Assembly (NCBI GenBank): GCA_016934735.1
Contig: JAFGSG010000071.1
Location: 27,369 to 91,368 of the forward strand
Direction of reading: 5' to 3'
DNA: 64,000 nucleotides
Source: Spirochaetota bacterium
Lineage (GTDB): Bacteria > Spirochaetota > UBA4802 > JAFGDQ01
Translations under genes and position numbers: made by a program
Shown here: positions 4,967-46,677 of the stretch, piece after piece
How positions within the stretch are numbered: the stretch's first letter is position 1
How the letters are laid out: the number at the start of each line of letters is the position of its first letter
The notes under the pieces: model-generated
Seen by the model: the letters and a program-made list of their open reading frames with translations, nothing else
Told to the model about the DNA's origin: nothing
Databases searched by the model: none

Positions 4967-5435
4967 AACATTTCCCCTTCATTCATTTATAATACAAGAA
5001 AATAATTACATAATAAATAAATTGTCAAACTGAATAAAAATTATAACAGAAGATCTTTTGTCTTTTCTTAAAAACATATGCACAATAAATTTGTTTTAAA
5101 GCAAGACAAGATAATATTTAAAAATGTAAAATTACCGGCACTGTTCTATTATAAGCAGTTTCATTATGCTTGACATAAAAAAGGGGTGTTACTTAATTAA
5201 AACATCACTTAGTAATCTGAATCAGCCAACTTTTATATTAATTAAACGGCGAAATATATCAGAATACTATAACCGGTACACTCCATACGGGCAACAACCG
5301 GGGCGCCATTGCGATTATTGTCCAGTTTAAGAAAAACCTATAAAATATATGATGAATTTACTGCATTCTATAATACACTTATTTAATATGAATATTTATT
5401 GAGCTTTGTTAAAATATATACGACAGGGTAAGAAT

Positions 5436-8400
5436 ATGGTCAATGTTACAATTAACGGAAAAGAGTATTCAGTAAAAGAGGATTCGACAATTATTGATGC
5501 AGCGCGGGCAAACGGTATAGATATTCCAGCCCTCGGATACGATCCGCGCGTAAGCCCGCCGAGCAATGTGGAAGCAGCATTTGTTGAAGTCACACTGGGA
5601 GATAAGACAAGATTTATATCCGCAACATCTTCACTTGTTGAAATCGGCATGTCTATCCGGACTGAATCCGATGCCTTAAAAAATTACAGACAGATATATC
5701 TGCAGGCCCTGTTGCGTCATCATTACGGGGACTGTGCCGCTCCATGCGTTCAGCACTGTCCAGCAAATATTGATATTCAGAAATATATTTATCATGTCAG
5801 CTGCGGTAATTTTTTGGAGGCTCTTGCGGTCATTAAAGATAGCAATCCGCTGCCCTCTGTGTGCGGGCGCGTTTGTCCGCATCCGTGCGAAACAGACTGC
5901 AGGCGAAATGCATTGGACGGCGCGGTCAATATAAACGGTATAAAACGATTTGTTGCGGACTGGAATGTATCGCAGCCTAGTCAGTACAAACCCGAGTGCA
6001 GTCCGGATACTGGATATAGGATTGCAGTAGTAGGCGCTGGCCCTGCAGGTCTTACTGCCGCCTGGTTTTTAAGACGGGCTGGTCATCAGGTTACAATATT
6101 TGAAATGCAGGAAGCAGCCGGCGGCATGCTGCGCTGGGGTATACCGTATTACCGGCTTCCGGAAAGAGATTTGGATATAGAAATTAAAGCAATAATTGAT
6201 CTGGGTGTTGATATTAAATATAATAAAGCATTAGGCCGTGATTTTACTCTTGAATCACTTATAAGGGACGGATTTAATGCTGTGTTTACCGCGTTGGGGG
6301 CTCAAAAGGCAACCTCAATGGGTGTCAAAGGCGAAGATCTCGACGGCGTTATGTCCGGTCTGGATTTTCTGGCTAGGCTTGGGCGCAACGGGAAACCGTC
6401 ACTCGGAGAAAGAGTCATAGTATTAGGGGGCGGAAATACTGCTATGGATGCTGCGCGCAGCGCCGTGCGTCTGGGCGTAAAGGATGTTACCATTGTGTAT
6501 CGCAGGAGCAGACAGGAAATGCCTGCTCAAAAGATTGAAGTAGATGAAGCTATAGAAGAAGGGGTCAACTTCCAGTTTTTATCTACGCCCGTGTCGATAC
6601 AAAAGAGCGGGAATATGCTGCAGGTCAACTGTATGAGGATGGTGCTTGGTGAGCCGGATAAAAGCGGCAGGCGCCGCCCGGTCCCGCAGGAAGGTTCTGA
6701 ATTTACCCTTACCGCTTCCACTGTAATTTCCGCAATAGGCCAGTCTGTTGACGGGCAGTGCATCGGCGATACAAGGCTGCTTGATAAATGGGGCAATATC
6801 CTGGTTGATTCAAAATCGATGCAGACTTCCATTCCATGGGTTTTTTCCGGAGGAGACTGTGTCACAGGGCCCGATATAGCCGTAACGGCAATTGGCGCAG
6901 GCAAAAGAGCTGCGCAGTCGATTGATCAGTATGTCAGAACCGGTAAAGTTATTTTACCCGAAGAACCGTATACATGTACAAAAGGAGAATGGAGCAGCCT
7001 TCCGGCTGAAACTTTTAAAGGAGTTAAATACGATAACCGCAGGGAAGTGCCTTCACTGCCTCCAAATACGCGGAAGAATAATTTTGATGAATCATCAATT
7101 ACGTGGGATGCTGAAACAGCAATGGCTGAAGCTTCCCGCTGCCTGGCCTGCGGCTGCACCGAACGATATGATTGCTCACTCCGCACTTATGCGAGCCGGT
7201 ATGGTGTTCAGCACGATACCTCACAGCCTGCCAAACCTTTACCTGTTGACGATAATCATCCTATTATTACAAGGGATACAGGCAAATGTATTTTATGCGG
7301 ACTTTGCCTCAAGGTCTGCCGCGAAATGGAAGGCGTTTCGGCTTTGAGTTTTTATGAAACAAACAACATCCTGACTATCGGCCCGAACGATCACAAACCT
7401 CTTGATATGACCACGTGTGTTTCATGCGGCCATTGTGCAACCGTTTGCCCGACCGGAGCTCTAACTCTTAAGCCAACTCTGCCGGATGTCTACCGCGCGC
7501 TGAAAAATGAGGAACTTACTGTCATTGCCCAGATAGCACCTGCCGTACGCGCTTCATTCGGAGACTATTATGGCATTGACGCAGCACAGGTTATGCCTGT
7601 TTTAAGCTCTTCCCTGAAAAAACTCGGATTCGACTTTGTATTCGATACATGCTGGGCGGCAGATTTAACTATTATGGAAGAAGGAACCGAATTTCTTTCG
7701 CGTCTTGCCAATGGAGGGGTGCTGCCGCAGATGACTTCATGCTGTCCTGCATGGGTCAATTATTGCGAAAAAATGGCTCCTGATATTTTACCGCATCTTT
7801 CTTCGTGTAAATCTCCGCAGCAGATGTTCGGAGCGGTTATGAAGCAGTACTTCACCAAACAGCTTAATGTACGTCCGGAAGCATTATACTTTGTTTCAAT
7901 AATGCCGTGCAACGCCAAAAAATACGAGTCCATGAGACCGGAATTCAGTACGGGTGACACACCGGATGTAGATAAAGTAATGACCACCACGGATATTATC
8001 GATATGTTAAAAGAGAGAAATATTGATCCATGCTGCATTGAACCGGGTCAGGTTGACGCTTTCTTCGGAAAAGTTAGCGGAGCAGGGATTATCTTCGGCG
8101 CAAGCGGAGGTGTAGCCGAAGCTGCCCTGCGTCTTGCTGCAGAGCGTGTAACCGGCAAACAGATGGAAAGTTTTGAATATGAAGGAGTAAGGGGGCTTCA
8201 GGGTGTAAAGGAAAGCGTTGTTACACTGGGAGACTCTAAAGTCCGTCTTGCGGTTGTAAGCGGTCTCCAGAATGCCCAGAAGCTGATTGACCGCATCAGA
8301 GCCGGAGACGCTCCTTATGACCTGATCGAAGTCATGGCATGCCCCGGCGGATGCATTAACGGGTCGGGCAATCCGGCTCCCATGCTGCATGCGGATACGG

Positions 8401-8858
8401 AACAGCGGCTGGAAGTATTATACAGGCTGGATCAGGAAGCTCCGATACGGAAAAGCCAGGACAATCCTGCGGTTCAGGCGATCTACAACAACTGGCTCGG
8501 CGAGCCGTTCTCCAGGATGTCGCATCATTCACTGCATACAACATATCGCAGGCGATCGATGCGTACCCATGATGCACCTTTGGAACCGCTGAAGATAGAA
8601 TCGCATACAATCGGCGTATGCATAGGCACCAACTGCTATGTCAAGGGTTCATGGAAGCTTCTGGAGGGGCTTTCCATTGAATTGAAGCAGCGCGGGTTGT
8701 CCGATCAGTTTCGCGTACAGGCCAGATTCTGTACCGGTGAATGTGAAGCAGGCCCGAATATTGTGATAGGCGGCAGAGTTATACCCATTCAGGACATGAA
8801 TGATTCCGCATCTATTGTAGATGAGCACTTGCTGCCGTTAATTAATAAAAAAAGATAA
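5436..8858 (+). CDS. [FeFe] hydrogenase fused to GltD-like NAD(P)H:FAD oxidoreductase and C-terminal thioredoxin-like [2Fe-2S] domain
   Basis: GltD motifs (VVGAGPAGLTAAWFL, VIVLGGGNTAMDAARSA); 2x[4Fe-4S] (CILCGLCLKVC, CVSCGHCATVCP); H-cluster motifs TSCCPAW, MPCNAKKYE, MACPGGCINGSGNP; C-terminal CIGTNC...CTGEC. ATG at 5436 chosen over upstream TTG at 5406. Confidence 0.92.
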   Translation: MVNVTINGKEYSVKEDSTIIDAARANGIDIPALGYDPRVSPPSNVEAAFVEVTLGDKTRFISATSSLVEIGMSIRTESDALKNYRQIYLQALLRHHYGDCAAPCVQHCPANIDIQKYIYHVSCGNFLEALAVIKDSNPLPSVCGRVCPHPCETDCRRNALDGAVNINGIKRFVADWNVSQPSQYKPECSPDTGYRIAVVGAGPAGLTAAWFLRRAGHQVTIFEMQEAAGGMLRWGIPYYRLPERDLDIEIKAIIDLGVDIKYNKALGRDFTLESLIRDGFNAVFTALGAQKATSMGVKGEDLDGVMSGLDFLARLGRNGKPSLGERVIVLGGGNTAMDAARSAVRLGVKDVTIVYRRSRQEMPAQKIEVDEAIEEGVNFQFLSTPVSIQKSGNMLQVNCMRMVLGEPDKSGRRRPVPQEGSEFTLTASTVISAIGQSVDGQCIGDTRLLDKWGNILVDSKSMQTSIPWVFSGGDCVTGPDIAVTAIGAGKRAAQSIDQYVRTGKVILPEEPYTCTKGEWSSLPAETFKGVKYDNRREVPSLPPNTRKNNFDESSITWDAETAMAEASRCLACGCTERYDCSLRTYASRYGVQHDTSQPAKPLPVDDNHPIITRDTGKCILCGLCLKVCREMEGVSALSFYETNNILTIGPNDHKPLDMTTCVSCGHCATVCPTGALTLKPTLPDVYRALKNEELTVIAQIAPAVRASFGDYYGIDAAQVMPVLSSSLKKLGFDFVFDTCWAADLTIMEEGTEFLSRLANGGVLPQMTSCCPAWVNYCEKMAPDILPHLSSCKSPQQMFGAVMKQYFTKQLNVRPEALYFVSIMPCNAKKYESMRPEFSTGDTPDVDKVMTTTDIIDMLKERNIDPCCIEPGQVDAFFGKVSGAGIIFGASGGVAEAALRLAAERVTGKQMESFEYEGVRGLQGVKESVVTLGDSKVRLAVVSGLQNAQKLIDRIRAGDAPYDLIEVMACPGGCINGSGNPAPMLHADTEQRLEVLYRLDQEAPIRKSQDNPAVQAIYNNWLGEPFSRMSHHSLHTTYRRRSMRTHDAPLEPLKIESHTIGVCIGTNCYVKGSWKLLEGLSIELKQRGLSDQFRVQARFCTGECEAGPNIVIGGRVIPIQDMNDSASIVDEHLLPLINKKR

Positions 8859-9186: not shown

Positions 9187-10902
9187 ATGAGTGAACCGCT
9201 TATCATTACAAATTCGGCGCGCTGCCGCGACTGCTATCGTTGTGTCCGCAATTGCGACGTAAAAGCTATCAGAGTAAAAAACGGCCAGGCCCAGGTTGTA
9301 CCTGAGTTGTGCATTCTCTGCGGTACCTGCGTCAGGATATGTCCGCAGAAGGCAAAAGGAGTTCGCAGCTCAACCCCGGATGTTAAGGAAGCGCTGAACG
9401 GCGGCAGGAAGCTGATTGCTTCAGTGGCGCCTTCAACTCCGGCCTATTTTACCATGAACTCTTTTGCAGACATGGAGAATGCGCTACTCGCACTGGGCTT
9501 TACTGCAGTTGAAGAAACGGCAGTAGGCGCAGAAGTCGTAAGCGCAGCTCATCGGGAATATGTTGAAAAAAATCCGGATAGAAAACCGGTCATTACGTCT
9601 TCATGTCCTGTTATCGTCAATCTTATCCAGCAGTATTACCCTGACCTTATCCCTCATCTTGCTCCAATTGTTTCTCCCATGATTGCCCATGGGCGCATGC
9701 TGAAGAATAAATACGGTGCTGATGCCTATATTGTTTTCATTGGTCCGTGCATCGCAAAAAAAATGGAAATACTGGATGAACCGGTAGCCGGTGTAATAAA
9801 CGCGGTTATAACTTTTCGAGGTCTTCAGGAATGGTTGATTGAAAAAGAAGTTATAATTAATAAATCTACTGATATTTGCGCTACTACGCATGAAATGAAA
9901 GCAAGACTTTTTCCTGTAGAAGGAGGACTGATCGGCGCAGCCCGTCTTAATACTGATATGCTTAGTGCGCAGATGATAGTCACCAGCGGGCTTGCTGCCT
10001 GCCGGGATGTTTTACGCGATATTGCAGCTGGCCAGCTTAATGCTGATATGGTAGAGCTTATGGCCTGCAGCGGAGGGTGTATTAATGGGCCTGTCATGGC
10101 CGATCTTCCGGGCGGTATCTACCGGTCTCGCCAGAAGATCATAGAATACTTTAAAAATAATCCTTATCATCCTCAGATATCGAAAGATGACTGGCCTCCT
10201 CTTTCACGTACATACCGGAACAGGGAGCAGCCTATACCAGAGTTTACAGAGGAGCAGATTCAGGACATACTGCATCGTGTGAATAAGTATACTCCTGAAG
10301 ATGAGCTGAACTGTCAGGCATGCGGTTATGAAAGCTGTCGTGAGAAAGCAATAGCTACTCTTCGCGGAATGGCGGAATTAACAATGTGTATTCCATATAT
10401 GCGAAGCCGCTCTGAATCACTCAGGCAGGTGGTTATGGATGTTTCTCTTAATCCCGTTATAATTGTTGACTATAACCTGCAGGTCCAGGACATGTCCCCG
10501 TCTGCTGAAGCGCTTTTTAAAGTATCACTTGCAGGGGTGAAAGGAAAATTTCTCTCCGTTCTTATACCTATCATTGACGATTATCTTTCGGTACGTGACA
10601 CAGGCATGCCGGTAATTTCCAAAGTTAATCGTTTCAGCAGCGGCATAGTTGTTGAACAAACCATTGTCCGGGTAGAAGGCCAGGCTCTTCTGGTTGCAAT
10701 AATGCGGGATATTACGGAGGAGGAAAAGGAAAGACAAAAATTTGTAGGATTAAGATCTGAAATGCTTGAGAAAACCAGAGAAGTTGTACAGAAGCAAATG
10801 CGGGTTGCCCATGAGATTGCACACCTTCTTGGGGAGACAACCGCTGAAAGCAAGATGATCGTTTTAAATCTCGCAAGGCTGCTGGAAGAGGAAGAGCAGT
10901 AA
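9187..10902 (+). CDS. Sensory-type [FeFe] hydrogenase with PAS domain (group C-like)
   Basis: 2x[4Fe-4S] (CRDCYRCVRNC, CILCGTCVRICP); H-domain motifs TSSCPV, GPCIAKKME, MACSGGCINGPVM; additional CQACGYESC motif; C-terminal PAS region (VVMDVSLNPVIIVDYNLQVQDMSPSAEALF). Confidence 0.87.
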   Translation: MSEPLIITNSARCRDCYRCVRNCDVKAIRVKNGQAQVVPELCILCGTCVRICPQKAKGVRSSTPDVKEALNGGRKLIASVAPSTPAYFTMNSFADMENALLALGFTAVEETAVGAEVVSAAHREYVEKNPDRKPVITSSCPVIVNLIQQYYPDLIPHLAPIVSPMIAHGRMLKNKYGADAYIVFIGPCIAKKMEILDEPVAGVINAVITFRGLQEWLIEKEVIINKSTDICATTHEMKARLFPVEGGLIGAARLNTDMLSAQMIVTSGLAACRDVLRDIAAGQLNADMVELMACSGGCINGPVMADLPGGIYRSRQKIIEYFKNNPYHPQISKDDWPPLSRTYRNREQPIPEFTEEQIQDILHRVNKYTPEDELNCQACGYESCREKAIATLRGMAELTMCIPYMRSRSESLRQVVMDVSLNPVIIVDYNLQVQDMSPSAEALFKVSLAGVKGKFLSVLIPIIDDYLSVRDTGMPVISKVNRFSSGIVVEQTIVRVEGQALLVAIMRDITEEEKERQKFVGLRSEMLEKTREVVQKQMRVAHEIAHLLGETTAESKMIVLNLARLLEEEEQ

Positions 10903-12077
10903 TGAGGCAGTTTGTCGAATTCTCGTGGATAAGTCTGAACAAGGACGGAGAGGAATTATGCGGGGATTCGGTAATCATCCAGTCCTCCCGCGATTCATTT
11001 GTGGCAGTATTGTCGGACGGGCTCGGAAGCGGCGTAAAGGCAAGCATATTATCAACCCTGACAGCGGAAATCGCAGCCCGGATGTTCGATTCCGGTGGAA
11101 CCGTTGAGGAAGTGATGCAGACTCTCGTAGAAACGCTTCCGGAATGCTCCGTTCGGAAGCTAGCCTATGCTACCTTTGCGGTTTTAACCGTTGATCATGG
11201 CACGGAAGCACATCTGGTAGAGTTTGACAGTCCTTCACTCATCCTGGTGCGCAACGGAAAATTAGCTGAATTATCATTTGAAGAGCATCAGATTAAAGGC
11301 CGCGTCATCCGCGAGGCGCGTTTTGCATTGCAGGACAATGACTATATGGTACTCATAAGTGATGGTTATGAACATGCGGGACTGGGAGGAATATACCGTC
11401 TCGGATGGGGATGGAAGAATGTAGCCACATCAGTCCAGCGTTTTGTACAGACCGGCATGGATACAGACAGGCTTTCTGATGCACTTTCGCGTACCTGCAT
11501 GAAATTATACAGCGGAAAGCCGGGAGATGATTCCACAGTTATCTGCATGAAAGTGCGGCCGGCGGTATCTGTGTGCATCCTGACAGGCCCTCCAGGCAAC
11601 AGAGAACTGGACAGCTTTGCGGTTAACAGGCTAATGTCTGCAGAGGGAGATAAAATAATTTGCGGGGGCAGCACAGCACAAATGGTCGCCCGGGAACTTA
11701 AGCTGAAGCTTGAGGTCGAATGGGTGCCGCCATGGAAAGTGAGCGGGGAAAAGCCCAGAAAAAAAGGTTCCCCGCCGACAGCAAAATTAGAGGGTATAAA
11801 TTTTGTTACTGAAGGCATTCTGACTATCGGCCAGGCTGTAGAACTGCTGGAGAAATGTAAAACAATATATGAACTTCCCGGCGATAACGATGCCGCAACC
11901 AGATTAGCGCGTTATTTGCTTGCTGCAGACGATATTTATCTAATCGTGGGTACTGCTATAAATCCTAACCAGGTTGCAGACCTTATACGCGGCGAGCCGA
12001 TGAGGATGGTATATATACGTGAACTCGTTCAAAATCTGACAAAGAGAAATAAACAGGTTACAGTGGAAAGGATTTAG
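10902..12077 (+). CDS. SpoIIE/PP2C-family serine phosphatase, hydrogenase-linked
   Basis: GDSVIIQSSRDSFVAVLSDGLGSGVKASILS...LISDGYEHAG...GDDSTVICMKV; start codon overlaps the stop of the sensory hydrogenase. Confidence 0.85.
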   Translation: MRQFVEFSWISLNKDGEELCGDSVIIQSSRDSFVAVLSDGLGSGVKASILSTLTAEIAARMFDSGGTVEEVMQTLVETLPECSVRKLAYATFAVLTVDHGTEAHLVEFDSPSLILVRNGKLAELSFEEHQIKGRVIREARFALQDNDYMVLISDGYEHAGLGGIYRLGWGWKNVATSVQRFVQTGMDTDRLSDALSRTCMKLYSGKPGDDSTVICMKVRPAVSVCILTGPPGNRELDSFAVNRLMSAEGDKIICGGSTAQMVARELKLKLEVEWVPPWKVSGEKPRKKGSPPTAKLEGINFVTEGILTIGQAVELLEKCKTIYELPGDNDAATRLARYLLAADDIYLIVGTAINPNQVADLIRGEPMRMVYIRELVQNLTKRNKQVTVERI

Positions 12078-15858: not shown

Positions 15859-15904
15859 GAGAGCGGAAAAGCTAATTTAATTTTTTACAAATGAGATATT
15901 GATT

Positions 15905-18900
15905 ATGTCTGAAAATAATATAATACAATTAGACGATAAAAGAAAACCCGGCACTGGCCTGGGTGCTGTAATGGTTGTAGGCGGCGGTATTGCCGGCATG
16001 CAGACTGCTATCGATCTCGCGGACAGCGGATTCAAGGTGTATCTTGTTGAGGAAAAGACGCATATAGGCGGAAGAATGTCCCAGCTTGACAAGACTTTCC
16101 CGACAAACGACTGTGCCATGTGTATTATTTCGCCCAAGCTTATCGAAGTTGACAAGAATATAAATATTGAGATACTTACAAACACTGAAGTTATGGTTGT
16201 TGAAGGACAAGCCGGGAATTTCAGCGTAAAGTTAAAAGAAAATCCCAGATATGTTGATATAGCTAAATGCACGTCATGCGGGGATTGTATTAAAGTGTGT
16301 CCTGTGCTTGTGCCGAATGAATTCAACACCGGGTTCGATCAGAGAAACGCGGTTTACAAGCTTTATCCTCAGGGAATACCGAGCACGTACGCAATCAGTA
16401 AAGCGGACAGGGCGCCGTGCGGCATAACATGCCCTGCCGGGATCAATGTACAGGGATATGTTGCGCTTACATCAAACGGCAAATTCAATGAAGCTTACGA
16501 TCTAATCGTTGAGAGAAATCCTTTCCCTTCCGTATGCGGGCGTGTGTGCCATCATCCATGCGAAGGAGTGTGCAACAGGGGCGAGATAGATGAGCCTGTG
16601 GCTATCAACAATCTGAAAAGATATAACGCGGATTGGGTAAGACAGAAGCGCAAAGAGGAAGGCTTTAAAGTTGAGAAAGCTGAAATCGATCCAATGAAGC
16701 CAAAGATAGCTATTGTAGGCGGAGGACCTTCGGGATTGACTGCTGCACGCGATCTTGTGCTCGACGGGTATCCTGTGACAGTGTTTGAAGCGCAGAGCAA
16801 ACTTGGCGGAGCAATGAGATGGGGTATTCCCAGATACAGGCTCCCTGACGAAATGCTGGACTGGGACATTCAGAACATCATCGATCTTGGAGTTGAGGTT
16901 AAACTGCAAAGCGCGCTGGGTAAAGATTTTACGATCAAATCTCTAAAGAATGAAGATTACAAAGCAGTGTATCTCGGCATGGGACTTCCGAAGGCAAGGA
17001 AGCTTAACATCAAAGGCGCGGATTCAGAGGGCGTACTTTGGGGCATGGATTTTCTCACTGAAGTGAATATGGGGAAATCGCCTAAAGTCGGGAAGAAAGT
17101 CGTGGTAATCGGCGGCGGCAATGTCGCCATTGATGCGGCAATGACAGCGAAAAGACAGGGCGCAGAAGATGTCACAATAGTCTCACTCGAATGCCGTGAA
17201 GAAATGCCGGCTCACGAATGGGAGATCGAGGACGCTGTAAGCGAAGGCATTAAGCTTAATCCTTCATGGGGCCCGGATGAAATAACCGCAAGCGACGGAA
17301 AAGTAACGGGGATAAAACTAATTCAGTGCACATGTGTATTTGATGAAAGCCAGAGGTTTAATCCCCAGTACAACCCGGAATGCGGTGAGGAACTTAAAGC
17401 TGATACAATTATTATAACAATAGGACAAGCTGCCGATCTGAACTGGGTGAATGACGACAGCAGTATTGAACTCGCAAGCGGAGGCATAAAAGCTGATAAT
17501 CTGACTCTGGCTACAAACATTGAAGGCGTGTTTGCAGGCGGTGACATCGCATACGGGCCTAAGTCCGTTGTTGAAGCAATAGCTCAGGGTCATGAAGCCG
17601 CGGAGAGCATACGCAGATTCATCGAAGGAAAAGATTTATCCGCAGGCCGTGAAAAAGAAGATAAGCCTGCGGCAAAAGTTCCGAAGGACAGGCCGTATTA
17701 TAAGAAATCGAGAACAATAGCTGAAAACATACCTGTAAAAGACAGGCAGGACAATTATAATGAGATAGCGCGTACATTCACGCAGGAAATGGCAATTGAA
17801 GAAGCAAAACGCTGTCTTGCATGCGGCATATGCAGCGAGTGTATGCAGTGCGTTGCAGCGTGCCTGCCAGGCGCAATCAATCACAACGAAATAGTAAAAG
17901 AGACCGTGATTAATGTGGGCGCTGTTGTAGCCGCTCCCGGCTTTGATCCATTTGATCCTTCGGGAAAGCCCGAGTATGGCTACGGAAGATATGCCAACGT
18001 TATCACATCCATGGAAATGGAGCGGACATTCAGCGCATCAGGTCCGTATCAGGGCCATGTGTCAAGGCCTTCTGATCACAAGCTGCCGGCGAGAATTGCA
18101 TGGATACAATGCGTTGGTTCGCGGGATTCTTCAATAGGCAAGGATTATTGTTCATCTGTCTGCTGTACATACGCTACAAAACAGGCATCGCTCGCCAAAG
18201 ACCATTACGGCGACCAGGTAAATGCAACTATCTTTCTTAACGATTTAAGGACATTCGGTAAAGGATTCGACCGCTATTACAACAATGCGGTGAAGAAATA
18301 CGGCGTAAGATACATAAACAGTTTTATATCGACAATTAAAGAAATTCCGGGAAGCAAGAATCTGTTAATTAAATATATCAATGAACAGGGCGGGCTAGCA
18401 GAAGAAGAATTTGATATGGTTGTGCTTTCGGTCGGGCTTGTCCCTTCAGCGTCTTCCGCAAGGCTCGCGAAAGCTCTGGAAATTGAGCTCAATGAATTCG
18501 GATTTACGAAGCCTCAGCCGCTAAGGCCTGGCGAAACATCCAGAAAAGGCATATTTGTTGCAGGCGTTTTCGAGAATCCGAAAGACATACCCGAAAGTGT
18601 AATGAGCGCATCGAGCGCAGCTGCCCTTTCATCCGAATTGATTTCGGCTTCAAGGGGGTCTCTCACTGAGCACAAGGATTATCCACCGGAAAAAGATATT
18701 AGCAAAGACGGCGTGCGTATCGGAGTATTCGTATGCCATTGCGGGATAAACATTGCCGGAGTAGTCGACGTGCCTGCTGTTACCGAATATGCAAAAACAT
18801 TGCCGAATGTGGTTTTCACTGACGATAATTTATTTACATGCTCTACAGATACGCAGGAAAAGATCAAGAAAGCAGTTGAAGAGCATAATCTTACAAGGGT

Positions 18901-20374
18901 GATAGTTGCTTCATGCACTCCGAGGACTCATGAGCCGCTTTTTCAGGATACAATAAGAGAAGCCGGGCTTAATAAATATTTGTTCGAAATGGCGAATATA
19001 CGTGATCAATGTTCGTGGGTCCACCAGAGCGATCATCCAAAGGCTACTGAAAAGGCAAAGGATCTTGTAAGGATGGCTGTTTCAAGATCAGCTACGCTTG
19101 AACCGCTGTATGAACTCCCGTTCGAGATCGATCAGAAAACGCTTGTAATCGGCGGAGGCGTATCCGGGATGACTGCCGCGCTCGGGCTCGCGAAGCAGGG
19201 ATTCGAATCATATCTTGTTGAGTGCTCGGATAAGCTGGGCGGGCATGCTCTAAAGATTCATTATACTCTCGAAGGCATTGAGCCGAAGAATTTTATCAGC
19301 GAACTGATCGAGTCAGTAAAGTCAAATGCAAAGATCAGGGTTCTGCTGAATACAAAGATCAGGAATACATCTGGTCATGTGGGTAATTTTACAACACAGA
19401 TTGAATCTTCCGGGAGTAAAAGCGAGATAAGGCACGGTGCTGTCATTGTTGCTACAGGCGGAGAAGAATATAAACCGACCGAATATCTTTATGGACAGAA
19501 TAAGGATGTTGTTACTCAGGTTATGCTTGAAGATATTATAGCAAAAACTCCGGATGTCCTTAAATCTGTGAAAAATGTTGTTATAATTCAGTGCGTTGGT
19601 TCGCGCGATGACGAGCATCCCTATTGCAGCCGTTACTGCTGTTCTGCAGCGTTGAAGAACGCGATTTGCATTAAAGAGATGAATGAGGGCGCAAATATTT
19701 ACATTCTTTATCGCGACATCAGGGCATACGGTTTTAAAGAACTGTATTATAAAAAAGCGAGAGAGATGGGAATAACTTTTATAAGATATGATGAGAAGAT
19801 AAAACCGGAAGTATCCGTAAACGGAAACGGGCTTGTTGTGAATGTTTATGATAAAGAACTGAAAGTGAATTTTGAAATTGAAAGTGATATAGTCGCATTA
19901 AGCGCAGCGATAAGGCCGGACCCCAAGGGGGAAAGCATTAAACAAATTTTTAAGCTTCCCGGTGATCAGGATGGCTTTTTTCTTGAGGCGCATATGAAGC
20001 TCAGGCCGCTTGATTTCGCAAGCATGGGAGTTTTCCTGTGCGGGCTCGCGCATTCGCCGAAGCTGCTCGATGAGAGCATAGCTCAGGCAAAGGGCGCTGT
20101 TTCCAGGGCATGCACTGTTCTTTCCAAGAAAGAGATGATGGTTGGCGGTATTGTGTCTCACGTCAATCCTGACAAATGTGTAGCATGCCTTACATGCGTA
20201 AGGGTATGCCCTTACGATGTGCCGAAGATAAGCGCTGACGGAGTAGCGGAGATTTCGAGCGCATCATGCCAGGGCTGCGGCAGCTGTGTGGCAGCATGCC
20301 CGAGAAAGGCGATCGAAGTGTATCATTATAAGGATGATCAGATATTGAGCAAATGCGAGGCATTGTATGTGTAA
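15905..20374 (+). CDS. hdrA: HdrA-type flavoprotein with inserted GltD/NfnB-like domain and second HdrA unit
   Basis: N-terminal HdrA FAD site and DKTFPTNDCAMCIISPKLIEV; GltD-like block APCGITCPAGINVQGYVAL...VCGRVCHHPCEGVC...IVGGGPSGLTAARDL...VVVIGGGNVAIDAAMTA; second HdrA N-terminus VFVCHCGINIAGVVDV...LVIGGGVSGMTAALGLAKQG; C-terminal 2x[4Fe-4S] CVACLTCVRVCP, CQGCGSCVAACP. Confidence 0.9.
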   Translation: MSENNIIQLDDKRKPGTGLGAVMVVGGGIAGMQTAIDLADSGFKVYLVEEKTHIGGRMSQLDKTFPTNDCAMCIISPKLIEVDKNINIEILTNTEVMVVEGQAGNFSVKLKENPRYVDIAKCTSCGDCIKVCPVLVPNEFNTGFDQRNAVYKLYPQGIPSTYAISKADRAPCGITCPAGINVQGYVALTSNGKFNEAYDLIVERNPFPSVCGRVCHHPCEGVCNRGEIDEPVAINNLKRYNADWVRQKRKEEGFKVEKAEIDPMKPKIAIVGGGPSGLTAARDLVLDGYPVTVFEAQSKLGGAMRWGIPRYRLPDEMLDWDIQNIIDLGVEVKLQSALGKDFTIKSLKNEDYKAVYLGMGLPKARKLNIKGADSEGVLWGMDFLTEVNMGKSPKVGKKVVVIGGGNVAIDAAMTAKRQGAEDVTIVSLECREEMPAHEWEIEDAVSEGIKLNPSWGPDEITASDGKVTGIKLIQCTCVFDESQRFNPQYNPECGEELKADTIIITIGQAADLNWVNDDSSIELASGGIKADNLTLATNIEGVFAGGDIAYGPKSVVEAIAQGHEAAESIRRFIEGKDLSAGREKEDKPAAKVPKDRPYYKKSRTIAENIPVKDRQDNYNEIARTFTQEMAIEEAKRCLACGICSECMQCVAACLPGAINHNEIVKETVINVGAVVAAPGFDPFDPSGKPEYGYGRYANVITSMEMERTFSASGPYQGHVSRPSDHKLPARIAWIQCVGSRDSSIGKDYCSSVCCTYATKQASLAKDHYGDQVNATIFLNDLRTFGKGFDRYYNNAVKKYGVRYINSFISTIKEIPGSKNLLIKYINEQGGLAEEEFDMVVLSVGLVPSASSARLAKALEIELNEFGFTKPQPLRPGETSRKGIFVAGVFENPKDIPESVMSASSAAALSSELISASRGSLTEHKDYPPEKDISKDGVRIGVFVCHCGINIAGVVDVPAVTEYAKTLPNVVFTDDNLFTCSTDTQEKIKKAVEEHNLTRVIVASCTPRTHEPLFQDTIREAGLNKYLFEMANIRDQCSWVHQSDHPKATEKAKDLVRMAVSRSATLEPLYELPFEIDQKTLVIGGGVSGMTAALGLAKQGFESYLVECSDKLGGHALKIHYTLEGIEPKNFISELIESVKSNAKIRVLLNTKIRNTSGHVGNFTTQIESSGSKSEIRHGAVIVATGGEEYKPTEYLYGQNKDVVTQVMLEDIIAKTPDVLKSVKNVVIIQCVGSRDDEHPYCSRYCCSAALKNAICIKEMNEGANIYILYRDIRAYGFKELYYKKAREMGITFIRYDEKIKPEVSVNGNGLVVNVYDKELKVNFEIESDIVALSAAIRPDPKGESIKQIFKLPGDQDGFFLEAHMKLRPLDFASMGVFLCGLAHSPKLLDESIAQAKGAVSRACTVLSKKEMMVGGIVSHVNPDKCVACLTCVRVCPYDVPKISADGVAEISSASCQGCGSCVAACPRKAIEVYHYKDDQILSKCEALYV

Positions 20375-41729: not shown

Positions 41730-42701
41730 TTAAAAATTAATATGCACATTGGGGCGGAAGATCAAAGACCAGTGTTCGTCAACCCTTTGTTTAAGCCTTC
41801 CCGAATATCCGCTGGAATTTGTTTTCAACGCTCCAACCGATAACGATAATGCCACGTTTTCGCTAACAACAAGCTTTTTTCCGAAAAGGAAAAGATACCT
41901 GGTTATCCTGTGTTTGCCCAGCATTTGCGGGTCAAAATCAATCCTGACTTCCTGTTCGCTGTTTTTTGTAAATATATTCAGTATCGGATTGCCCCCTTCA
42001 AGGATATAATCAATCCTGTTCCGTTTAATAGAAATATAAAGGGCGTCTTTTATATCAGGATGATAATGTTTTTTATATCCTATTGCATAACTCCAGCTTA
42101 TATCTCTTGTTTTTCTTACATCAGATCCTTTTACTTTTATTTCTGTTTCAAACCAGTTGTCATCAACCATGGTGTTGTCAACAATGTGTTTATTGCCGTA
42201 GCTAAAAAGAAGTCCGCTGAAACCTTTCCCCACTACTTCTTTGTCTTCCTTTATAAAATCCACAACATTGCCCAGAAAGAAGGAGAATGCCCATGGTTCC
42301 GGGAAGCCGGCTGTTATTGATCTGACAATATTAATATTTTCGGAAATTTGCGATTTTTCCTGCCATGCTGTGTTTTTTTTTATGTAAACGCCTGCAATAG
42401 GCAGGGGGTAGATACTGGCTTCGAGAAGGACGAACTGGGGCATATAGATATTTTTGATCAGATAATAATAAATATTCTTTTCATTTGAATAAGGTTCTTT
42501 CGGGATCGATTTATCCGTAAGAGAAAATATATATGAAACATTTGAATAATACTGATCAAGTTCAAAACTGAATTCGTGTTTTCCCGCGTCATCAAGCTGA
42601 AATGTTTTTTCGTAAGCTAAGGATCTTAAGGGATAGAATAAAATTAAAAATAAAAGCCATGTTTCTATAAATATCAGATTTTTATTTGTATTTATAATCA
42701 T
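41730..42701 (-). CDS. Hypothetical exported, possibly outer-membrane beta-barrel protein
   Basis: N-terminal signal peptide; alternating-strand composition; C-terminal residue Phe (NVHINF), as in many outer-membrane barrels. Confidence 0.5.
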   Translation of the reverse strand: MIINTNKNLIFIETWLLFLILFYPLRSLAYEKTFQLDDAGKHEFSFELDQYYSNVSYIFSLTDKSIPKEPYSNEKNIYYYLIKNIYMPQFVLLEASIYPLPIAGVYIKKNTAWQEKSQISENINIVRSITAGFPEPWAFSFFLGNVVDFIKEDKEVVGKGFSGLLFSYGNKHIVDNTMVDDNWFETEIKVKGSDVRKTRDISWSYAIGYKKHYHPDIKDALYISIKRNRIDYILEGGNPILNIFTKNSEQEVRIDFDPQMLGKHRITRYLFLFGKKLVVSENVALSLSVGALKTNSSGYSGRLKQRVDEHWSLIFRPNVHINF

Positions 42702-42800: not shown

Positions 42801-43601
42801 CTATGATGCAAGATATTTCGATAACTTATAAAGAGCACGTTTAACGGAAGGCATTCCGAATGATAATCCGGAAAGGAAGCCGTAGTATTCTTTCCCGTCC
42901 CTCTTTTCTGTGGGCTTTATCGGCCGCGGATTGGTCGGGAGCCCGAATTTTTCCGGGATGTCTTTTAGTATTGTAATTACGTGCATGCCTCCGAATTCTT
43001 CAAGCCCGTAAATGCATGCGTCCGGGAAATTTTTTTTTATTATTTTCAGCCTTTTTTTCGCAATCGCGACAATCTTGAGCCTGAAGTCGAATGTGAGCGC
43101 ATCGCTTGGGCATGCGCTCACGCATGCCGGTATTTCTCTTGCTTTTACAGTGCACGCATGGCATTTGTATGCTTTGTCTTTATCAATAAATCCGCCTGTA
43201 CCGTACTCATTGTAATCCTTGTTCGCCAGATGCGGTACATTGTATACGCACGCCCGGACGCACTCATCGCATCCAATGCATTTTTCCTGATCTATAATAA
43301 CCCAGTAGTTGTTTTTATAAATCGCTTCAGCAGGGCAGACTGTAATGCAGTTCGCTATTTCACAGTGAAAACATTTTTTATGCATCATTTGCAGGATGGG
43401 TATGCTGCTGTCAGCACTTTCTATTCCGGTAATTATTACATGGTTGAAGGTGATTGCGGATAATTTCTCAGGACTTGTATATTCATGTGGAAAGGAAGAT
43501 ATCTCATCCGAAGGCAGATTGTTCCATTGTTTGCATGCAGTCTGACATGCCTTGCATCCGGTGCATTTTGTTGTGTCTACAAGGAATGCTTTATCAGCCA
43601 T
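42801..43601 (-). CDS. Four-cluster ferredoxin subunit, formate dehydrogenase beta-like
   Basis: CTGCKACQTACKQWNNL, CFHCEIANCITVCPAEAI, CIGCDECVRACVYNVPH, CHACTVKAREIPACVSACPSDAL. Confidence 0.87.
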   Translation of the reverse strand: MADKAFLVDTTKCTGCKACQTACKQWNNLPSDEISSFPHEYTSPEKLSAITFNHVIITGIESADSSIPILQMMHKKCFHCEIANCITVCPAEAIYKNNYWVIIDQEKCIGCDECVRACVYNVPHLANKDYNEYGTGGFIDKDKAYKCHACTVKAREIPACVSACPSDALTFDFRLKIVAIAKKRLKIIKKNFPDACIYGLEEFGGMHVITILKDIPEKFGLPTNPRPIKPTEKRDGKEYYGFLSGLSFGMPSVKRALYKLSKYLAS

Positions 43602-43602
43602 T

Positions 43603-46563
43603 TTATGCCTCCCTGTCCATGTTTACCAGAAAAGCTTTGTATTCAGGAACACCGGAATTTGCGTCTCCAATGTCATGAGCCAGATTATTGAAGCAATTTA
43701 GTATTGTCGCATTACCGGAATTTGAAACAATGCCTATCAATTCAATTTTTCTTCCGTTAATTATAAACGGCTGAATTCTTTTTGTCACCATGCAATAAGC
43801 GCTTAATTTGCCTCTAAGGGAATGAATTGATACTTTATCGCCGTTCCGAATGCCTTTGGCTTCTGCAAGCGACTGGCTTATTTCGCATAAATAAAACGGC
43901 GAAAGCTCGTCAAGCCATGAAAGATTTTTGGTCATAACGCCTTGCTGCCATTGCTCTGCAATCCTGAACACTGTTGCAATATAAGGATATACTCTGCTGT
44001 TCCCGCCCTGATTTTGCTTTGCAGCAATGATTGCCGGATTAAATGCGGCAGCGTTAAGCAGGTTGCCTGTCGGGCTTTCCATCGGTTCATAATGTTCCGG
44101 CAAAGGGCCGTCTGCCATGTTTCCGGCAAATATTTTTCCGACTCCTTCCTCCAGCATAATAAACGGATTTTTTTCCGCAGGGCCTGCCATGCCCTCGCCG
44201 TTAACCGCGTCTCCCTCCCATACGTCGTCCCATTCTGTCAGTTGTTTTTCCTGGGCCCACGGTTTGCCGAGCCTGTTTACGCCTGCCCTGTTGTAAAGTA
44301 TTCTGCTGTTGCCGGGCCAGCTCCATGCCCATCCCGGGTACAAGCCAAGCTTGCTTGACAAGTCCCGCGTGCTTCTTCTTGCGGTCATGCTGCCGGTTTC
44401 GGAATAGCTTCCGCAATAGAGCCAGTTGCCTGCAACAGTGGAACCGTCATCCTTCAGCCTGCCGAATTCAGGTACCTGTTTATGGGTTTTCAGGTCATAT
44501 CCGTTTATTTCTCTGCAGACCTCAAGAGGATCGGGGTCGTTTTTCTCTCCTTTGTAATCCCAGTTTGAGTGCGTTATGCAGTCGGGGAAAGAAGCGTTTT
44601 TATCTTCAGTGTAAAGTCTTTTTAATTCATTAAAAATCGTATCAATGATCCATAAATCGGATTTTGCCTGCTCCGGGGGATTCACAGCTTTGTTCCTCCA
44701 TTGCACCCATCTTCCGGAGCTGGTCAGGGTGCCGTCTTTTTCAAACGCGGATGCAGACGGTATAAAAAAAACTTCGGTTTTTATTTTTTCGGGTTTTGCA
44801 TTCGGCCTTTTCCAGAAAGCAGCGCTTTCAGTTTCAAATATACCGGTCACTGCGATCCATTCGAGGTTTTCCATTGTCTTTGCTTTTAATCCGGTATTTG
44901 GAGCGTTCATCAATGGATTCGCACCGGCAAATACAGCTCCCTTAATTATACCTTTCTGTATTTCGCTAAAAATATTTTTTTGGTAATTGCTTTTGCTGAT
45001 TTTAGGAAGCCAGTGAAAGCAGTAATCGCTTTCTTTTAATGCGGCTGCCCCGTAATAAGCTTTAAGCAGATTTATTATCTGATAATTTCTCCTGCTTAGA
45101 ATATTTATGCTCATGGGATTATTTGTTAGAGGGGACACGCTTTTTATGTACGAATCTAGAGTAGAATGTTCTTCAGCAAGAGGGACAGGGAGATATCCCG
45201 GCAGATAATCGGATCGCATTCCGTGATCGTCACATCCCTGTTCATTCGGCCCCTGCCTCAGCGCGTTTAGTCCGCCGCCCGGAATGCCGATGTTTCCTAA
45301 CAGCATCTGGAGGATAGCGTATGCCCTGATATTCTGCGCGCCTACAGTGTGCTGTGTTGCTCCGGAAGAAAAAAGTATCGCTCCTGCTTTTCCGGATTTG
45401 CCGGTTGAAGTAAACATATTCGCGATTTTTAAAAAAGTATCTTCGGGGCATCCAGTTATCCGGGAAACAATATCCGGTGTGTATCTGGAAAAATGATTTT
45501 TTATAATCTGGAAAACAGATCTGCTGTTTTTCAGGGTCTTGTCTGCACGCGGAATGCCTTTTCTGTCCTTCTCATAATCCCATGCGTTGTAATTATATTT
45601 TTCGCCTTTTAAACCATTGAAAATGCCGTTTTGAAATTTATATTCCTGATTTATGATAAATGATGCGTTTGTATATTCTAAGACATATTCCCTGTTTATT
45701 CTGTTGTTTTGAAGCGCATAGTTAATAATGCCTCCGATAAACGCGATATCTGTACCCGGCCGCAAAGGCGCGTATATATCGGCTAAAGATGATGACCTTG
45801 TGTAACGGGGATCAACATGGATAACCTTCCCGCCTTTTCCCTTTGCTTTTAAAATGAATCTGACAGAAACCGGATGAGTTTCAGCCGGATTGCTACCGAT
45901 TGCCAGGATCACGTCCGCGTTCTTAATGTCTATCCAGTGATTTGTCATTGCGCTATATCCGAAGGTGTTGCGAAGAGCCAGGCCTGCTGCGCTGTGCGAG
46001 TATTCCGATTCATTGTATATACCGGTGATGCCTAAAATCCTGGCCATTTTGGAAAGAAGGTAATATTCCTCATTGTTAAGCGATGATCCGGCAGCAACAA
46101 CTATTCCTGAGGTTCTGTTTACAGTGGTTTTCCCTTCATATTCTATAAATGTTTTTTCCCTTGCGTCCTTAATTTTTTCTGCGATCTTCTTTATTGCTTC
46201 TTCCCACGATATCTCGCGCCAGTCCGATGCATATGGCGCCCTGTACATTACTCTTCCGAGTCTTTTACTATTATGGCTGCTTAGCTGAAAAGCGGCACTG
46301 CCTTTTGAGCACAATTTGCCCCTGTTGATGGGATGTACCGGGTCGCCTTCAATGTTTACAATTTTATCATCTTTAACGGATACGGTCATACCGCACCCCA
46401 TACTGCACATGGGGCATATACTTGAAATTTCTTCTGCGCCTTTTAGTTTATTAACCGCCGCCCTGCGACAGCTGTATAAGAAAGATAAGGAAGCGTTTCC
46501 CAGAAATGCAGCCATGGTCGTGAAGCCGGATAATTTAAGGAAATTTTTTCTGGTAACCTTCAT
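43603..46563 (-). CDS. FdnG-like molybdopterin oxidoreductase (formate dehydrogenase alpha-like; Ser at the Sec/Cys position)
   Basis: CPMCSMGCGMTVSVKDDKIVNIEGDPVHPINRGKLCSKG; EYSHSAAGLALRNTFGYSAMTNHWIDIKNADV; NTEQGC-type and C-terminal FdnG motifs (MARRSTRDLS..LGLYPGWAWSWPGNSRILYNRA, GPLPEHYEPMESPTGN). Confidence 0.88.
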   Translation of the reverse strand: MKVTRKNFLKLSGFTTMAAFLGNASLSFLYSCRRAAVNKLKGAEEISSICPMCSMGCGMTVSVKDDKIVNIEGDPVHPINRGKLCSKGSAAFQLSSHNSKRLGRVMYRAPYASDWREISWEEAIKKIAEKIKDAREKTFIEYEGKTTVNRTSGIVVAAGSSLNNEEYYLLSKMARILGITGIYNESEYSHSAAGLALRNTFGYSAMTNHWIDIKNADVILAIGSNPAETHPVSVRFILKAKGKGGKVIHVDPRYTRSSSLADIYAPLRPGTDIAFIGGIINYALQNNRINREYVLEYTNASFIINQEYKFQNGIFNGLKGEKYNYNAWDYEKDRKGIPRADKTLKNSRSVFQIIKNHFSRYTPDIVSRITGCPEDTFLKIANMFTSTGKSGKAGAILFSSGATQHTVGAQNIRAYAILQMLLGNIGIPGGGLNALRQGPNEQGCDDHGMRSDYLPGYLPVPLAEEHSTLDSYIKSVSPLTNNPMSINILSRRNYQIINLLKAYYGAAALKESDYCFHWLPKISKSNYQKNIFSEIQKGIIKGAVFAGANPLMNAPNTGLKAKTMENLEWIAVTGIFETESAAFWKRPNAKPEKIKTEVFFIPSASAFEKDGTLTSSGRWVQWRNKAVNPPEQAKSDLWIIDTIFNELKRLYTEDKNASFPDCITHSNWDYKGEKNDPDPLEVCREINGYDLKTHKQVPEFGRLKDDGSTVAGNWLYCGSYSETGSMTARRSTRDLSSKLGLYPGWAWSWPGNSRILYNRAGVNRLGKPWAQEKQLTEWDDVWEGDAVNGEGMAGPAEKNPFIMLEEGVGKIFAGNMADGPLPEHYEPMESPTGNLLNAAAFNPAIIAAKQNQGGNSRVYPYIATVFRIAEQWQQGVMTKNLSWLDELSPFYLCEISQSLAEAKGIRNGDKVSIHSLRGKLSAYCMVTKRIQPFIINGRKIELIGIVSNSGNATILNCFNNLAHDIGDANSGVPEYKAFLVNMDREA

Positions 46564-46677
46564 GAACAATCCTGTGGTAAAAACCTTTTACGGAATTTGT
46601 CTTTTAAAAATATTCAGCATTACTTATGACTGACTTTTAATATGTGTCAATAAAATATTTATCAAAATGGATTTTCC

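Follow-up and report, generated by a model that had tools for sequence, protein, structure and literature searches.

The window (the whole 64,000-nucleotide stretch of Spirochaetota DNA analyzed here) encodes an FdnG-type alpha subunit that has lost its metal ligand together with several formate-site residues and that keeps its iron-sulfur Cys residues, its predicted fold and the main pterin motifs; genes of this kind are intact in five genomes. The reading that we prefer, with a probability of roughly 0.6, is that the gene and its neighbor specify an exported alpha–beta pair of the FdnGH type, no longer active as a formate dehydrogenase but maintained as a module for electron transfer or scaffolding. 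More specifically, the alpha subunit, which is of the FdnG/FdhA type within the periplasmic FdnGH family, would have lost its formate-oxidizing site, the iron-sulfur wiring of this subunit and of its FdnH-like beta partner would have been kept, and the pair, Tat-exported and probably lipid-anchored, would serve as an iron-sulfur electron-transfer or scaffold module.

The alpha subunit (986 aa) lies at 43606–46563 on the minus strand, the ATG at 46563, which gives a conserved MKVTRKNFLKLSG start, being preferred to the TTG at 46569 of the open reading frame listing (ORF 43603–46569). The ORF is intact. In a profile search, residues 5–985 match the FdnG model TIGR01553 with 1040 bits (cut-off 814), in line with the initial annotation, which had called the protein FdnG-like, and three Pfam domains are recognized (PF04879, PF00384 and PF01568, the last one being the C-terminal dinucleotide-binding domain). 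Residues 3–984 align by phmmer with FdhA of D. vulgaris (DvFdhA; E 1.5e-249), and the AlphaFold2 model (pLDDT 88, pTM 0.90) superposes on DvFdhA and E. coli FdnG with TM-scores of 0.93 and 0.92, respectively. By sequence, membership in FdnG is indicated by the TIGR01553 score over the curated cut-off, the Cys residues of the alpha cluster and the adjoining gene for a four-cluster beta subunit. In the alpha [4Fe-4S] cluster, Cys ligands 1–3 (C50, C53 and C57; 46393–46416, minus strand) are kept in all five degenerate proteins, and the fourth (C85; 46309–46311, minus strand) is found inside a CxKG motif. The N-terminus displays a Tat-like signal (TRKNFLKLSG; 46468–46563, minus strand) ending at Cys32 in a lipobox-like LYSC context, which suggests lipidation; Cys32 is common to all five degenerate proteins and, like the export signal, to the majority of the close, intact Sec/Cys FdnGs in the order.

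Directly downstream lies the gene for an FdnH-like beta subunit of 266 aa (42801–43601, minus strand) with 16/16 ligand Cys for four [4Fe-4S] clusters. Counting against an electron-transfer role, no gene for a partner such as a membrane quinone subunit or a cytochrome is found next to the pair in the window; it is the retained clusters that argue for this role, and electron transfer may well have been retained. The following gene (41730–42701, minus strand) encodes a 323-aa protein with a signal-like N-terminus and a C-terminal Phe, possibly an outer-membrane barrel, for which neither a Pfam match nor a usable BLASTP match was obtained. Its tie to the alpha–beta pair is uncertain; an operon partner was not established, as this protein is not homologous to the 433- and 454-aa genes found downstream in the two related genomes G002 and G001. 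The latter genes, which directly follow degenerate FdnGH genes (L052:12031-13395, 454 aa, in G001; L053:12944-14245, 433 aa, in G002), encode homologous proteins (58% identity) that lack a Pfam match, that were not seen at any other searched locus and that are possibly outer-membrane barrels.

The Sec/Cys position of the alpha subunit is occupied by Ser189 (TCG, 45997–45999, minus strand), as read from the strand (...AAT GAA TCG GAA TAC TCG CAC AGC..., translated ...NESEY-S-HSAAGLALRNTFGYSAMTNHW...) and from the phmmer alignment, in which Ser189 falls under U192 and His190 under H193 of DvFdhA, with no gap nearby. Both the Ser and the preserved catalytic His (CAC, 45994–45996, minus strand) had been reported in the initial annotation, which is thus borne out on these two points; the His is replaced by N, Y, S and D in the four homologues. 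No Cys is present anywhere within the loop around Ser189 of the window protein. The change extends to the whole loop, QARIUHSATVAGLAASFGRG being replaced by ESEYSHSAAGLALRNTFGYS.

This loop is one of three catalytic loops that are altered in the window protein (DvFdhA numbering for substitutions): (i) loop 1, residues 184–204 in the Sec helix region (45952–46014, minus strand), which is heavily altered; (ii) loop 2, residues 395–410 (45334–45381, minus strand), where A404 and M405 are both replaced by S; (iii) loop 3, residues 430–457 (45193–45276, minus strand), where R441 and Q447 are kept and where the substitutions are G442 to Q, E443 to G, S449 to C, T450 to D and H457 to D. Formate is bound in DvFdhAB by R441, Q447 and T450, and H193 shifts together with the Sec loop when the enzyme is reduced (PMC9820355). 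The Asp found at the T450 position of the window protein therefore supports the loss of formate dehydrogenase activity, which is probably absent. Altogether, the pair resembles DvFdhAB and E. coli FdnGH in family, fold, alpha–beta gene order, export signal and cluster ligands, but differs from them by the missing Sec/Cys ligand and by the changed equivalents of T450, H457, M405, G442 and E443.

The losses are concentrated in the catalytic loops. Out of 174 columns that are at least 98% conserved among the canonical rows, the window protein has lost 15/36 within the loops versus 11/138 elsewhere (Fisher 6e-6), and the other four degenerate proteins show the same bias (Fisher 3e-7 to 3e-5), these values being descriptive as the three loops were set from literature positions for DvFdhAB after the loss pattern had been seen. 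All the iron-sulfur Cys are kept in the five proteins (4/4 in alpha, 16/16 in beta), and the GSNPAE, DPR and RPGTD motifs, known in this family to bind the pterin dinucleotides, are largely retained in all of them, as is PF01568 in the window protein.

The sample of the order comprises 46 genomes, whose named members are Spirochaetota metagenome-assembled genomes. At the Sec position, most FdnG genes of the order show an in-frame TGA and a small number a Cys codon; five FdnGs have neither Sec nor Cys, and the ligand and the next residue are Ser-His in the window protein, Pro-Asn in G002, Gly-Tyr in G001, Ser-Ser in G037 and Asp-Asp in G008. G002 and G001 belong to the same family as the window genome, and G037 and G008 to another family of the order. 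The residues at the catalytic Arg position are R, S, K, S and P, in the same sequence of genomes. Each of the five proteins has lost further catalytic residues besides the ligand. The least degraded of them is the window protein: it lacks the Sec/Cys ligand and has His190, Arg436 and Gln442 at the active site, whereas neither His nor Arg survives in its four homologues. The five proteins all score over the TIGR01553 cut-off for FDH-N, and their genes are full-length intact ORFs from five separate genera with the alpha–beta gene pairing kept, the homologues being 44–54% identical to the window protein, whose own identity with intact FdnG amounts to about 50%. Five positions are common to the five degenerate proteins and nearly absent from the Sec/Cys proteins of the order. 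Two more distant FdnG-like genes (28% identity), in G004 (L051:4140-6962, minus strand) and G013 (L050:4086-6833), adjoin FdnH-like genes and specify Lys-His and Arg-His, respectively, at the Sec/Cys position, with Asn for the catalytic Arg; they possibly represent a further degenerate group.

The canonical FdnG rows have U/C, His and Arg in 104/104 cases each. Outside the order, U/C-His...Arg is kept in every FdnG among the best 80 loci of the scan of named genomes, the sole exception in the set being the G002 record; a single-sequence scan of the named genomes gave no matches. When the phylum of a Desulfobacterota genome was surveyed, Cys was found in 6/6 FdnGs without in-frame TGA among those listed, it being understood that the large surveys scored two candidates per genome and that divergent copies can be missed. 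One of the six (L199, in G841) has kept the Cys and has Gln for His and Gly for Arg; the other five are canonical Cys enzymes. A set of FdnG-like proteins from Dehalococcoidia (L144 and L147–L151) has likewise kept the ligand Cys, with Val or Ile in place of His and Ala or Thr in place of Arg, and most of these proteins have Cys at the position equivalent to S449.

This last position brings in the alternative that we take most seriously, although we regard it as unlikely, namely that the protein is a repurposed Mo/W enzyme acting on another substrate, in which the bis-pterin cofactor would still be bound, either without a protein ligand or by a relocated thiolate such as Cys444 (45232–45234, minus strand). 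Cys444 replaces a Ser or Thr that is invariant in 104/104 canonical rows, it is shared with G002, and the same position carries Cys in most of the above Dehalococcoidia group, which lacks His and Arg. The retained pterin-binding motifs and PF01568 point in the same direction, and so do the five positions common to the five degenerate proteins. A catalytic site can also dispense with a protein ligand: in arsenite oxidase AioA, Mo has no amino-acid ligand and the enzyme is active (PMC10100899). The Pro and Gly homologues would be similar in this respect if the metal is bound, but AioA belongs to another MopB lineage and is an active enzyme with its own conserved site. No such new set of conserved active-site residues is seen in the five proteins, where the pocket residues diverge differently from genome to genome, and the position of Cys444 is Ala in three of the five, which argues against a general replacement ligand. 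Two points nevertheless count against the electron-transfer or scaffold module: a pure electron wire would not need the retained pterin framework and C-terminal dinucleotide-binding domain, and the window protein is precisely the one in which His, Arg and Gln are kept. A more far-reaching version, which we consider doubtful, is that a catalytic FdnG was converted on more than one occasion in a single Spirochaetota order, giving rise to periplasmic alpha–beta redox modules of a new class, and that the window protein perhaps still binds the metal, through the relocated thiolate (Cys444) or with no protein ligand, for non-formate chemistry.

We consider it improbable that the genes are pseudogenes on their way to full loss, with no function left. 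The end branches of the degenerate proteins are long, 0.5–1.4 changes per site versus a median of 0.19 in the same alpha tree, as expected from this hypothesis, but the ORFs are intact and full-length in five genera at the identities given above, every cluster Cys of both subunits is present and the alpha–beta pairing is kept.

The initial annotation had pointed to Ser ligation as characteristic of enzymes of the DMSO-reductase type, had inferred an altered substrate or chemistry or a loss of formate activity, and had proposed to look for a clade of Ser enzymes. Ser is indeed the ligand in DMSO and TMAO reductases (PMC10100899), and the window protein has kept His and Arg; a Ser-ligated enzyme of this type is highly improbable here, since the Ser is not conserved in the lineage. 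No Ser clade exists in the order, the five non-Sec/Cys proteins carrying S, P, G, S and D at this position, which indicates that the ligand was lost and that no new one was adopted. Furthermore, family, fold and tree group the window protein with FdnG and not with DmsA/TorA, and the models for DMSO/TMAO reductases score below their cut-offs (TIGR02166, 137 bits for 778; bisC_fam, 61 bits for 1018). The Ser-ligated enzyme of the first reading is thus most likely to be replaced by the loss of the active site in an FdnG lineage, as judged from these comparisons. A working formate dehydrogenase in which Ser replaces Sec is scarcely tenable either: His190, Arg436 and Gln442 are in place, but the homologues have lost the His and the Arg too, the T450 to D substitution puts an acid at the formate-binding spot, and the Sec to Ser substitution abolished the activity of E. 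coli Fdh-H (Zinoni 1987, as cited in PMC3160892). The loss of formate activity that had been suggested from the outset is the likely consequence of the Ser. Finally, the window comes from a draft assembly (150 contigs, 90.85% completeness), but an assembly or sequencing error at the Ser codon is hardly credible, and a simple base-call error very unlikely, because the alterations extend to the entire loop and to other catalytic residues and because homologues in four other genomes, including the orthologous site of the sister genome G002, are altered too.

A Ser at the Sec/Cys position of an FdnG orthologue has already been published for Dehalococcoides, whose protein, OmeA, is described as having no formate dehydrogenase activity or formate use (PMC3160892, PMC5736913); the initial annotation had overlooked this case. 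Like the window protein, OmeA of Dehalococcoides and Dehalogenimonas is an FdnG orthologue over the TIGR01553 cut-off with Ser for Sec/Cys; it has also lost the catalytic Arg. Homologues from genomes rich in reductive dehalogenases have S-T, S-Q or G-P at this position. Contrary to OmeA, whose partners are the NrfD-like OmeB, HupX, a NiFe hydrogenase and RdhA, the spirochaete locus comprises the alpha–beta pair only. The origins differ as well: a shared origin was discarded, as the constraint placing the two sets of proteins in one clade was rejected (AU p 2.6e-6). Since the spirochaete and Dehalococcoides proteins form no single clade, the FdnG ligand has been lost at least twice. A role in organohalide respiration is not indicated either, as the distribution of reductive dehalogenases does not follow that of the degenerate spirochaete gene: one RdhA over the cut-off is found in the window genome and none over the cut-off in G001, G002, G037 and G008. 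The one in the window genome (G000:C42:30168-30815, inside L205) is of the reductive dehalogenase type and exceeds the TIGR02486 cut-off, with 172.5 bits.

QrcB and the B1 domain of ActB are homologues of catalytic molybdo-subunits that lack the Mo/W-pterin cofactor and are part of electron-transfer complexes (PMC6303296, PMC5928083). The non-catalytic electron-transfer role proposed here for a MopB homologue would be akin to theirs. However, QrcB is very distant in sequence (81.5 bits with the QrcB model for a cut-off of 440), and, unlike QrcB and ActB B1, the window pair keeps the pterin motifs and the Cys residues for all five iron-sulfur clusters. The spirochaete pair most likely works like OmeA and QrcB but arose independently of them.

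As to how the degenerate lineage arose, loss of the Sec machinery was excluded as the cause. SelB is over the cut-off in 5/5 genomes with a degenerate gene, the window genome contains a further FDH-like gene whose Sec position is encoded by TGA, and G037 and G008 each carry a separate FdnG with TGA at this position; hence, the Sec system was not lost. The degenerate locus of G037 and G008 displays the order AI-2E transporter, FdnG, FdnH, amidohydrolase and two cyclic-nucleotide-type genes, and the same six-gene order surrounds the intact Sec FdnG of G035 and G040. This synteny points to a loss in place at the G037/G008 locus. In the alpha tree, the five degenerate proteins form one clade (support 96/92), but on long branches and with a placement that weakens in leave-out trees. 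The rpoB tree puts G037 and G008 inside a different family from the window genome, and separate placement of the two groups within the order is not rejected (AU p 0.09–0.11). The degenerate genes of the order may have one or two origins, the five shared positions favoring a common one.

The spirochaete proteins constitute a second, independent lineage, beside OmeA of Dehalococcoides, in which the metal ligand of FdnG was lost and all the iron-sulfur Cys of both subunits were kept. That this happened in two lineages suggests that the wiring of FdnGH can be of use even when formate chemistry is gone. Where the loss apparently occurred in place, the relatives' intact Sec gene with the same neighbors makes the steps from enzyme to non-enzyme directly comparable. 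Note that annotation would ascribe to the five organisms a respiratory formate dehydrogenase encoded at this locus, which is probably absent: since each of the proteins scores above the curated FDH-N cut-off, metabolic models built from metagenomes would mis-call them.

Three other regions of the window, all on the plus strand, encode redox proteins. Positions 5406–8858 specify an [FeFe] hydrogenase of 1150 aa with fused FAD/NAD(P) and 2Fe-2S modules. At 9187–12077, the gene for an [FeFe]-hydrogenase-like protein immediately precedes one for a SpoIIE/PP2C-type phosphatase, an arrangement known from sensory hydrogenase pairs, which suggests a sensory role. Lastly, positions 15899–20374 encode a protein of 1491 aa in which several FAD/NAD(P) domains are combined with 4Fe-4S motifs.
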